Below are positions 1-30,919 of a stretch of 64,000 bases of DNA, one piece after another. The position numbers were made by a program, and so were the translations under genes. Position 1 is the stretch's first letter; each line of letters begins with the position of its first letter. The DNA is from Bacteroidetes bacterium GWB2_32_14 (GTDB lineage: Bacteria; Bacteroidota; Bacteroidia; Bacteroidales; UBA12077). The stretch spans positions 1-64,000 of the forward strand of contig MENK01000008.1 in the NCBI GenBank assembly GCA_001768235.1, in the 5' to 3' direction. The notes under the pieces are model-generated. The model worked only from the letters and a program-made list of their open reading frames with translations, was not told the origin of the DNA and did not search any database.

Positions 1-79
1 CACTTAGTGGCGAAATCTAAGAAAAGGTTTAATATTATTCATATTACAGGGTTTAGTAAAATTTTAATCGGACACCAAT
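1..79. repeat. REP-like dispersed repeat, copy A (right part)
   Basis: The first bases hold a small palindrome (CACTTAGTG) followed by GCGAAATCTAA. About 40 bases later comes the tail AATTTTAATCGGACACCAATG-like (bases 59-79). The same architecture, a short palindrome, a G-C-GA core and a closely similar tail, recurs at about 24940-25073. This copy may begin before the window. No gene is visible in it. Confidence 0.4.
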
Positions 80-311
80 GTATTTAAAGTATTTTACCGG
101 GATAATATGCTTTTATTTTTCCTTGTAAAAATTTGAGTCTCATAGTTTTTGTGGTAAAAAACATCTGCTAAAATGCTAATCCATAAAGATGCATAAAATC
201 AGCACTTTAAACTTATGAACACGCAACAGGTTAAAATAATTTAAACCAAAAGAATTATTTACCGTAAAAAGTTAAATTATGCACAATTTTTGCCAGATAA
301 TTGCATTATAC
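80..311. other. non-coding gap upstream of the YD-repeat gene
   Basis: This AT-rich stretch has no supportable ORF. Around 138-160 it contains TTTGTGGTAAAAAA, which resembles one arm of the degenerate CTTTGTG-type inverted repeat at 36884-36985. Otherwise I see nothing in it. Confidence 0.4.
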
Positions 312-7374: not shown

Positions 7375-7393
7375 ACTCAACTCTTTATAGAAA

Positions 7394-7434
7394 TAAAAAA
7401 GGTTGTTTCATAATAATTGAAACAACCTTTTTTA
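7394..7434. terminator. bidirectional rho-independent terminator
   Basis: A perfect stem of AAAGGTTGTTTC and its complement (GAAACAACCTTT) around TAATAATT, with A/T runs on both sides. It can end ribH on the plus strand and the tRNA/GIY-YIG transcript on the minus strand. Confidence 0.85.
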
Positions 7435-7447
7435 TTGAGCGGGAGAC

Positions 7448-7469
7448 CTGCCTGAACCGGCAGGCAGGC
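7448..7469. repeat. short palindromic insertion, CTGCCTG type
   Basis: CTGCCTG, AACCGG, CAGGCAG form a perfect 7-bp stem with a 6-nt loop, inserted inside the tRNA-Gly tail copy. Related palindromes occur at 28495-28517 and 30871-30888. Confidence 0.7.
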
Positions 7470-7480
7470 GGAACTCGAAT

Positions 7481-7566
7481 GCCGAATTTCACCAAGCTTT
7501 GTTTGGCTTGAAATTCGAGCATCCACGAAAAATTATGAAAATCATTGATTTTCAATTTTTTGAGAT
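7481..7566. repeat. 86-bp insertion made of two neighbouring imperfect palindromes
   Basis: The left half is built on GAATTTCA...TGAAATTC (7484-7516) with AAGC/GGCTT around the loop. The right half is built on TGAAAATCA/TGATTTTCA (about 7536-7553) flanked by A and T runs. The insert breaks the tRNA-Gly tail copy between its second and third blocks and supplies the stop codon of the GIY-YIG reading frame. Confidence 0.6.
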
Positions 7567-7828
7567 CCGCGACCTTCAGATATTTCTTTTTCTATAAAAT
7601 TCAAAATTCTTTGTTGACTTTTATAGTTTTTTATCTTTCTCTCTAACTTCATAGCATCTGACCTTGATTCTACTACTCTATAAAACTTTATTTCCACGGG
7701 ATACCTTTTGATGTATAATTCTCAAATCCATGATTGTGCCTTTTAATTCTATCAAGTAGGTTTTGTGTTTGACCAATATAGAATTTTTGCAATGATTCTG
7801 AGAATAAAATGTAAACATAGTATTTCAT
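7542..7828 (-). pseudogene. GIY-YIG nuclease-domain gene with a frameshift
   Basis: The minus-strand ATG at 7828 opens a frame reading MKYYVYILFSESLQKFYIGQ, then TQNLLDRIKRHNHGFENYTS and KGIPWK, the hallmark N-terminus of the small one-domain GIY-YIG (UPF0213/YhbQ-like) family. At 7690-7693 a short A run makes the frame hit TAA. Adding one base restores IKFYRVVESRSDAMKLERKI and onwards to the C-terminal SEGRGSQKIENQ and a TGA at 7542-7544. It is therefore one gene with a 1-nt deletion, or a homopolymer sequencing error. Its last codons (EGRG) lie on the copied tRNA-Gly tail. The terminator of the tRNA cluster ends 8 nt before its ATG, so expression would need read-through. Confidence 0.82.
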
Positions 7829-7836
7829 AATACAAG

Positions 7837-7863
7837 AAAAAGATTGCTTTTATGCAATCTTTT
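7837..7863 (-). terminator. terminator of the tRNA cluster
   Basis: On the minus strand AAAAGATTGC, ATAAAA, GCAATCTTTTT forms a hairpin with a T run directly after tRNA-Gly and just before the GIY-YIG start codon. Confidence 0.75.
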
Positions 7864-7869
7864 CTTTTG

Positions 7870-7942
7870 AGCGGGAGACGGAACTCGAATCCGCGACCCT
7901 TAGCTTGGAAGGCTAATGCTCTACCAACTGAGCTACTCCCGC
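7870..7942 (-). tRNA. tRNA-Gly (anticodon UCC)
   Basis: The 73-nt gene folds as a normal class I tRNA. The 5' acceptor strand GCGGGAG pairs with CTCCCGC, the D arm is GCTCAGTTGGTAGAGC, and the anticodon arm TTAGC-CTTCCAA-GCTAA has anticodon TCC. The T arm contains the standard GATTCGAGTTC. CCA is not encoded. It is last in a Thr-Tyr-Gly cluster, and its 3' 30 bases are duplicated at 7437-7574. Confidence 0.95.
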
Positions 7943-7949
7943 AATATGT

Positions 7950-8035
7950 TGGTGGGGAGAGCAGGATTCGAACCTACGAAGGCGTACGCCAGCAGATTTA
8001 CAGTCTGCCCCTGTTGGCCACTTAGGTATCTCCCC
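7950..8035 (-). tRNA. tRNA-Tyr (anticodon GUA), CCA encoded
   Basis: This class II tRNA has acceptor GGGGAGA/TCTCCCC, anticodon arm GCAGA-CTGTAAA-TCTGC with anticodon GTA, a long variable arm (TGGCGTACGCC) and T loop TTCGAATC. Discriminator A is followed by genomic CCA at 7950-7952, unlike the two neighbouring tRNA genes. Confidence 0.95.
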
Positions 8036-8051
8036 AACAATAACATTTCCG

Positions 8052-8125
8052 AGCCGATGGAGGGATTCGAACCCCCGACCAGCTGATTACAAATCAGCTG
8101 CTCTGGCCAACTGAGCTACATCGGC
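8052..8125 (-). tRNA. tRNA-Thr (anticodon UGU)
   Basis: The 74-nt gene has acceptor GCCGATG/CATCGGC, D arm GCTCAGTTGGCCAGAGC, anticodon arm GCTGA-TTTGTAA-TCAGC with anticodon TGT, and T arm GGGGGTTCGAATCCC. CCA is not encoded. It is first in the minus-strand Thr-Tyr-Gly cluster. Confidence 0.95.
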
Positions 8126-28494: not shown

Positions 28495-28524
28495 GCTTGC
28501 CTGCCTTTGGCAGGAGCATTTTTT
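28495..28524 (+). terminator. palindromic repeat serving as the likely tilS terminator
   Basis: GCTTGCCTGCC, TTT, GGCAGGAGC forms a GC-rich hairpin followed by ATTTTTT. Its core belongs to the same CTGCC/GGCAG palindrome type as 7448-7469 and 30871-30888, so a dispersed repeat may have been used as a terminator. Confidence 0.6.
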
Positions 28525-30812: not shown

Positions 30813-30919
30813 AACCTCCATGCCATACTTCTATTATAATAAAATCGGCAAAACATATTTAATCATCTTTGTCTGCCTATCGGCAGACATGTTTGCGCAA
30901 AACCTTTTGCATGGAGGTT
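30813..30919. repeat. inverted repeat with 11-bp arms
   Basis: AACCTCCATGC (30813-30823) is the exact reverse complement of GCATGGAGGTT (30909-30919), and the pairing extends outward with one bulge (TGA/TTCA). The 85-bp interior contains the second palindrome at 30871-30888. The structure looks like a tiny non-coding insertion or the remains of one. Confidence 0.6.
30871..30888. repeat. perfect palindrome, CTGCC type
   Basis: GTCTGCC, TATC, GGCAGAC: 7-bp stem and 4-nt loop, nested inside the larger inverted repeat and related in sequence to 7448-7469 and 28495-28517. Confidence 0.65.

Follow-up and report, generated by a model that had tools for sequence, protein, structure and literature searches.

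Why should a small GIY-YIG nuclease gene lie between a tRNA-Gly gene and a second, broken copy of that gene's 3' end? The window, by which we mean the whole 64,000-nucleotide stretch analysed, comprises bases 1-64000 of contig 8 of a 3.66 Mb genome in 36 contigs. The locus contains the following features.

7869 to 7942, minus strand: intact tRNA-Gly(TCC), the target gene (ARAGORN)
7950 to 8035, minus strand: tRNA-Tyr of the same cluster, upstream of tRNA-Gly (ARAGORN)
8051 to 8125, minus strand: tRNA-Thr of the same cluster, upstream of tRNA-Gly (ARAGORN)
7841 to 7860, minus strand: terminator-like hairpin AGATTGC..GCAATCT immediately 3' of tRNA-Gly (sequence, sequence comparison)
7688 to 7828, minus strand: 5' part of the one-domain GIY-YIG gene, with its ATG at 7828, ended by a frameshift (PF01541)
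7542 to 7697, minus strand: 3' part of the GIY-YIG gene, in a second frame, entering the tRNA-tail copy (list of open reading frames; PF01541)
7567 to 7574, minus strand: displaced tRNA-Gly copy, tRNA positions 45-52 (sequence match)
7481 to 7566, minus strand: 86-nt hairpin-rich insert at the T-loop of the displaced tRNA-Gly copy (sequence comparison)
7470 to 7480, minus strand: displaced tRNA-Gly copy, tRNA positions 53-63 (sequence match)
7448 to 7469, minus strand: 22-nt GC-rich palindromic insert of the CCTGCC..GGCAGG type (sequence), missing in the copies of genomes G007 and G008
7437 to 7447, minus strand: displaced tRNA-Gly copy, positions 64-74, the tRNA 3' end (sequence match)
7392 to 7436, strand not applicable: terminator-like perfect inverted repeat of 19 bp, separating the displaced tail from the convergent neighbour gene (sequence)

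The three blocks of the displaced copy match the tRNA-Gly tail at 30 of 30 bases, just as a preliminary description of this DNA had read them, and under gap-tolerant scoring the copy reaches 17.9, compared with 10.0 for the best of 40 shuffles. That description also placed a small GIY-YIG gene between the tRNA and the copy. Such a gene is there, 3' of tRNA-Gly on the shared strand, and its read-through peptide matches PF01541 (E 1.3e-13), but it is broken near 7690-7700 by a frameshift, either real or a sequencing error, which leaves a first frame of 46 codons. The residues EGRG are read from the copied tail as claimed, but they are not the C-terminus, as SQKIENQ comes after them. Annotated GIY-YIG proteins elsewhere have termini resembling translated tRNA tails. 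The suggestion that the frame would be open through the whole tail once both inserts are removed held when the sequence was inspected, by eye only. Two relatives, G007 and G008, have an insert similar in sequence to the 86-nt one at the identical T-loop position, and the hairpin 3' of the window's tRNA-Gly is like the one that comes after it in gene-less relatives. A dispersed repeat of about 270 bp, a partial copy of which opens the window (1-100), has at least 11 further copies in the same genome; it lies at about 860-1150 in L002.

The tRNA cluster lies near two genes that we take to be ribH, the convergent neighbour by our own reading of its ORF, and yidC, also our own reading. By tBLASTn the cluster is flanked by both of these putative genes in G003, G006 and G007, and in G001, G004 and G009 it lies next to one; the G008 contig has the putative yidC and stops within the tRNA. 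A GIY-YIG gene is present at the Gly site in G007, G008 and G009, the displaced copy in G009 being decayed, and no such gene was found in the 300-420 nt examined in G001, G003, G004 and G006. The orientation of the Thr-Tyr-Gly cluster with respect to its neighbour genes is inverted in some relatives. The window's genome has a second, near-identical Thr-Tyr-Gly cluster on contig 1 (L055), with no GIY-YIG gene after its tRNAs.

Proteins of this type satisfy the usual definition of the GIY-YIG superfamily, the domain together with conserved Y, Y-x-G, R and E; these residues (Y6, Y17, G19, R27 and E63) are invariant in eight diverse members, the window copy being frame-broken. Of five PF01541 matches in the window's genome, two fall in long proteins. 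The other three are one-domain, and all three of these genes adjoin a tRNA gene, for Gly (in the window), Val and Arg. The proteins are 80-100 aa long and have no evident DNA-binding domain beyond GIY-YIG, which counts against a homing reading. Their nearest solved structures are UPF0213 proteins (1zg2, 1ywl) and SLX1. NCBIfam gave weak matches to group I intron endonucleases for two of four proteins, and PHROGs weak matches to homing endonucleases for three of four. An origin in phages or plasmids was considered and rejected: against 50,697 phage records one protein gave only two weak matches and a second none, and a third had no match when compared with plasmids.

A profile of the tRNA-linked type had matches in 139 of 197 Bacteroidia genomes (E 1e-6) and in 188 of the 296 genomes of a second sample (E 1e-10), some genomes being common to both. 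The eight sequences behind the profile all belong to loci that have a tRNA no more than about 420 nt away, so the counts tell how common the family is and say nothing about its linkage. A sample centred on the genome of a record titled Limnohabitans shares contigs with the Bacteroidota samples and so provides no outgroup. Ten pairs of Arg-type genes from five members of the genus gave dN/dS values of 0.07-0.26, some pairs having saturated synonymous change, which indicates that this protein is maintained by purifying selection.

Linkage was measured separately. A PF01541 search of 41 Bacteroidota genomes provided, from among the matches listed, 78 loci with short frames. A tRNA lies within 170 nt in 39 of the 78, always on the same strand as the gene, and across all 78 stretches a single tRNA stands on the other strand, about 1.6 kb off. 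A tree of 154 domains pooled from several searches (79 columns, many forks unresolved) places 72 of these loci; the window locus is among the six absent. It contains a clade of 33 rows (support 100/96) that we presume from its sequences to be YhbQ-like. No row labelled tRNA-adjacent falls inside that clade, so the tRNA-adjacent genes do not qualify as members of it. With four contig-edge loci excluded, 36 of 43 loci in the tRNA-linked group outside the clade lie within 170 nt of a tRNA, compared with 0 of 25 in the clade (Fisher p ~1e-12). The association of one-domain GIY-YIG genes with tRNA genes, which the preliminary description had offered as a check, is therefore found. Homologues with no tRNA association, which it had named as a refutation, also exist, as the YhbQ-like clade and as 7 of the 43, but the refutation applies only in this limited form. 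No tRNA was seen in the stretches examined at nine UvrC-type or other long GIY-YIG loci, nor in those examined at several GIY-YIG loci of the genus.

The kind of tRNA also follows the tree. With one row per locus, the amino acid of the tRNA requires 34 changes, against at least 44 (mean 51) in 200 shuffles, and tRNA linkage requires 17, against at least 31. The tRNA given in the tree label is not always the nearest one (exceptions are L007, L028 and L178), and the test was run with the labels as they stood.

The loci fall into two classes. Class A, to which the window locus belongs, has a copy of the tRNA 3' tail beyond the gene; class B, mostly at tRNA-Arg, has a copy of the 5' head before it. 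Both occur in the window's genome: the Val locus has a 31/31 tail copy 317 nt downstream of the tRNA, and the Arg locus is its mirror image, with tRNA positions 1-21 copied upstream of the gene and the full tRNA downstream. Comparable copies accompany Met, Leu, Asn and Val tRNAs in relatives. Among 142 pooled distinct tRNA-adjacent loci, 125 have a displaced copy scoring above shuffles, 107 of 120 in class A and 18 of 22 in class B, where one locus had no testable stretch. The pool is rich in Val (54 of the 120 class A loci), and the 17 loci with no copy, or none that could be evaluated, count against a mobile element. The tail copies of class A, together with the matching gene-less sites described below, support the original proposal that a GIY-YIG unit uses tRNA genes as its targets and rebuilds the tRNA end. 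Chance local duplication was rejected on the strength of recurrence at many tRNA kinds, and given this recurrence a chance origin of the window's own tail copy is very unlikely. The two classes are not clade-structured (11 changes on the tree; shuffle minimum 10, mean 13).

The Val type is the most amply represented. An alignment search gave 79 loci, from the best 80 of 98, and these include isolates of Algoriphagus, Marivirga (a complete chromosome), Pedobacter, Winogradskyella and Cognataquiflexum. In this set a tRNA on the gene's strand lies within 170 nt at 57 loci, 50 of class A and 7 of class B, and is tRNA-Val in 45. The remaining loci comprise nine at contig edges and 13 with no tRNA that near; for nine of these 13 a tRNA-Val stands upstream at about 180-770 nt. 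Of the 49 class A loci open to evaluation, 47 have a tail copy.

Copies lacking an intact GIY-YIG gene occur in limited number, as Val tails in G010, G312 and G004 and at L280, L281 and L297. The preliminary description had held that tail copies without the gene would refute it, but we read them as relics, since relatives have the gene at the same site (Val) or the copy contains the same palindrome type. L280 (G000 contig 18 near 16671) and L281 (G000 contig 24 near 284377) are Met and Leu head copies split by the CCTGCC..GGCAGG palindrome, and no GIY-YIG gene was seen within the stretch examined at the Met and Leu head copies of the window's genome. A Met head copy in G003 (L294) is split in the same way, with a GIY-YIG gene about 560 nt further on (L010), and L297 (G010) is a His tail copy split by this palindrome.

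Where exactly does the unit sit? At tRNA-Arg(ACG), both flanks of the element in the window's genome are matched in G003 and G304, where they meet with the 21-nt tRNA head present once. The upstream flank (about 90 nt) is 86% identical in G003 and 80% in G304, the downstream flank (about 875 nt) 70% and 77%, and about 280 nt are missing at the site in both. Twelve Arg sites were listed from 20 genomes. A promoter-like TATATATTTGCA stretch stands directly 5' of the intact tRNA at seven of them; in the five carriers it precedes the displaced head, laid out as tRNA positions 1-21, a palindrome and then about 22-38, and the intact tRNA comes after the gene. The reading frame of these carriers ends LDL or LNL, followed by a stop codon within the tRNA (L245, L248-L251). 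We infer that the tRNA of class B Arg loci may be processed out of the nuclease transcript, removing the stop codon from the mRNA.

The Val site was searched in 20 genomes and 13 sites were listed: six with the gene (that of G009 at a contig end), three with tail relics (one with a truncated gene) and four with neither, the sequence of one of these ending 94 nt past the tRNA. In G007, G312, G010 and G004 the tRNA is immediately followed by the hairpin AGACTTCAG..GAGTCT or a near variant of it. Carrier G306 has the host-type hairpin after its displaced tail and another, different one after its intact tRNA. Similarly, G305, a carrier with two tandem units, has after its last tail copy a flank like the one that follows the tRNA in the gene-less G006. 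The displaced tail in G306 and G312 ends ATCGCCC and the functional tRNA ATCTCCC; ATCGCCC is the end of the functional tRNA-Val in G004, G007, G308 and G310. The pattern is what replacement by an end of foreign origin would leave, though drift could also have produced it.

In carriers, then, the native end has been displaced: the host terminator (Val) or promoter (Arg) adjoins the displaced copy. This places the element inside the tRNA gene, supplying a replacement end, and comparison of the sites shows, as far as sequence alone can, that it lies within the tRNA-Val and tRNA-Arg genes. The target tolerates the insertion, with an intact tRNA beside the gene and a displaced 3' or 5' copy. Presence and absence at a fixed site are polymorphic at the level of species, not strains (Val 6 of 13 and Arg 5 of 12 listed sites). 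A Pro site in another genus was left out because the downstream gene was non-syntenic in most matches. The earlier reading is extended in two ways, as insertion is inside the tRNA gene and not at its very end (Val, Arg), and a mirror class restores the 5' head. Empty sites in relatives, which had been suggested as a check, were available at both the Val and the Arg site for comparison with carriers. Because of the inversion of the cluster, and of the host-like hairpin beside the intact tRNA-Gly, displacement of the host flank is not shown at the Gly site, and it is an inference that the window copy is a product of the same process.

Tandem arrays, with tRNA tails read, are found in G111 (contig 9, L177), with at least ten 457-bp GIY-YIG units, and in G195 (contig 1, L178), with four 322-bp units at tRNA-Pro and a different terminator after the last copy. 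Further arrays occur in G604 (period 315 bp) and on contig 1 of G551 (period 450 bp), and the GIY-YIG copy number reaches 22 per genome. At L011/L020 (G012 contig 3), tandem tRNA-Val-like genes are interleaved with GIY-YIG genes; the tRNA-Val-like genes have odd anticodon loops and are reported by ARAGORN as tRNA-??? 'ta'.

We think it likely that these loci represent a family of minimal homing-type GIY-YIG mobile elements in the tRNA genes of Bacteroidota. The proposal rests on observed recurrence, tRNA adjacency, displaced copies, insertion at Val and Arg, tandem arrays, relics and the purifying selection measured for Arg-type genes; cleavage and homing are inferences. What the aligned loci show, short of any experiment, is small units occupying tRNA genes and leaving an intact tRNA and a displaced end. 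Each element would consist of one small GIY-YIG endonuclease gene and a piece of tRNA gene, about 280-460 bp per unit. Lying within the tRNA gene it would bring a replacement end that leaves the tRNA intact, a 3' tail with terminator in class A and a 5' head in class B, and the host's own end, with its terminator or promoter, would come to lie on the far side of the nuclease gene, usually with a palindrome at a tRNA hairpin. The nuclease is inferred to cut the tRNA gene, probably near the loop marked by the palindrome, and host recombination would then copy the element in, which constitutes homing; the palindrome might block re-cutting or recombination at the displaced copy. One point counts against this scheme: the tRNA next to the gene is intact in carriers, and an enzyme able to cut tRNA genes would be expected to cut its own host as well. 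If the element reading as a whole is right, as seems probable, the window locus is a decayed member of this minimal mobile family.

The same loci could belong to an ordinary host gene with a role in repair, tRNA metabolism or defence, the partial copies having been left by local duplications at recombination-hot tRNA genes. Purifying selection on the Arg type would be expected of such a gene, tRNA genes are in general known recombination sites, and some copies have no GIY-YIG gene. We nevertheless consider this improbable, as the gene is patchy within one genus (Val 6 of 13, Arg 5 of 12 listed sites), the host flank is found on the far side of the displaced copy, the genes occur at many kinds of tRNA while the YhbQ-like clade has no tRNA linkage, and a genome may have up to 22 copies. 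Vertical inheritance with loss could explain the patchiness in part.

The palindromes bear on a second alternative. Many displaced copies are split by a palindrome at a tRNA hairpin, those continuing on both sides keep the tRNA order, and identical palindrome types occur with different tRNAs. A perfect stem of at least 7 bp is present in 85 of 125 displaced copies, compared with 21 of 125 intact tRNAs and 5 of 125 shuffled copies, each copy being taken with 25 nt on its gene side, a margin into which a few stems fall. The 40 copies without such a stem count against the element reading. Stems of class A (n=75) lie in the anticodon arm (57), the T-loop (17) or the D-loop (1), and those of class B (n=10) in the D-loop (8) or the anticodon arm (2). 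The pattern CCTGCC-N2-14-GGCAGG has 22 matches at 20 places in the whole of the window's genome, with none for a reversed-pattern control, and is missing from 2 of 19 genomes of the genus. Two of the places are in the window, at 7447 and 28500. Ten of the 20 were examined: two are in elements (Gly, Arg), two in the Met and Leu head copies and six elsewhere. The window has four GC-rich perfect stems of at least 8 bp, the 22-nt insert (7448-7469) among them. Further GC-rich palindromes in the window, at 30870-30889 and 28500-28514, are TGTCTGCC..GGCAGACA and CCTGCCTTTGGCAGG.

Such figures might point to a system centred on hairpins, in which an SLX1-like structure-specific GIY-YIG enzyme acts on palindromes and tRNA-gene hairpins, the dispersed palindromes being a second substrate, as REPs are for RAYT transposases. 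The excess of stems in displaced copies, the D-loop position in 8 of 10 class B stems against 1 of 75 in class A, the four of ten examined palindromes that lie in tRNA copies and the presence of SLX1 among the nearest structures all speak for it, but with six of the ten examined not at tRNA copies, two genomes of the genus lacking the palindrome type and no biochemical data, we find it very doubtful. Least credible is an ordinary tRNA-integrating satellite, moved by a tyrosine integrase in trans with GIY-YIG as cargo and the tRNA copies as att sites: tail duplication and tRNA targeting are in general the classical marks of integrase elements, but the units examined in detail have a single short ORF in about 280-460 bp, no second ORF and no integrase, their copies are mostly interrupted by a palindrome, a 5'-head class exists, and the nuclease family tracks the tRNA kind (34 changes against at least 44 in 200 shuffles).

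Returning to mobile GIY-YIG elements, our preferred guess for the palindrome, an inference, is that it blocks either re-cutting or deletion and recombination between the repeats; the more novel alternative guess would give it a structural part in the mechanism. A bolder version, which we regard as unlikely though worth stating, would make these phylum-wide selfish elements with an ultra-small, structure-guided GIY-YIG nuclease, divided into subfamilies each attached to one tRNA gene. The enzyme would cut in a hairpin loop, the tRNA would be restored at its 3' or 5' end, the palindrome would mark the displaced half at the cut loop, and the dispersed palindromes would in part be products of the enzyme.

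tRNA genes are essential, and mobile DNA within them is usually attributed to integrases. Among the papers listed by searches of the open-licence literature, judged by titles and abstract openings, there was no bacterial chromosomal counterpart of GIY-YIG elements in tRNA genes, and what we describe looks like a widespread, so far undescribed kind of selfish DNA. The units would be near the minimum size for a protein-coding selfish gene, and would live inside tRNA genes, entered from either end, while leaving the tRNAs intact. They would assign a function to a common annotation, account for unusual tRNA fragments and for pseudogenes resembling tRNAs, supply nucleases that possibly each favour one tRNA gene, and tie palindromes to a nuclease family. 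How a nuclease of 80-100 aa recognises its target and spares its host becomes testable.

Four known systems invite comparison. The one-domain UPF0213/YhbQ proteins (1zg2, 1ywl) have the same size and fold family and are the best structure matches, but the YhbQ-like clade has no tRNA linkage. Islands and prophages that integrate at tRNA genes use integrase att sites and regenerate the tRNA end; unlike them, the elements have no integrase, consist of a single short ORF, include a 5'-head class and have a copy split by a palindrome.

The free-standing homing endonuclease SegB is larger than the element proteins. It belongs to the tRNA region of phages T4 and T6 and shares with the elements the GIY-YIG domain, adjacency to tRNA genes (36 of 43 loci) and tandem units. 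According to the accessible part of its description, SegB of T6 cuts within tRNA genes, amplifies tRNA-segB units in tandem (718 bp), often lies beside tRNA genes of many isotypes and has homologues in phages of Bacteroidota (PMC13096335). The motif RAWTSGAAC given there (PMC13096335) reverse-complements, by our own reading, to the T-loop sequence GTTCSAWTY. SegB is phage-borne, whereas the element proteins (two tested) have few or no close phage relatives, and the accessible part mentions neither restoration of a tRNA end nor a palindrome-split copy (PMC13096335). By analogy, and within the limits of that partial source, SegB of T6 is the nearest experimental precedent.

For the architecture, the nearest precedent is the mobile ORFs (mORFs) of fungal mitochondria, again by analogy and on a source available to us only in part. 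These carry a replacement 3' end of atp6, atp9, cox2 or nad3, and the inserted end replaces the native one, which ends up downstream, Allomyces atp6 being a case cited there (PMC3630166). Unlike the elements, mORFs are organellar, have protein-coding targets and mostly encode LAGLIDADG enzymes (the atp9 case is GIY-YIG), and the available part reports no 5'-head class or palindromes (PMC3630166). Like the elements, they combine an endonuclease gene with a copy of the target gene's 3' end (PMC3630166).
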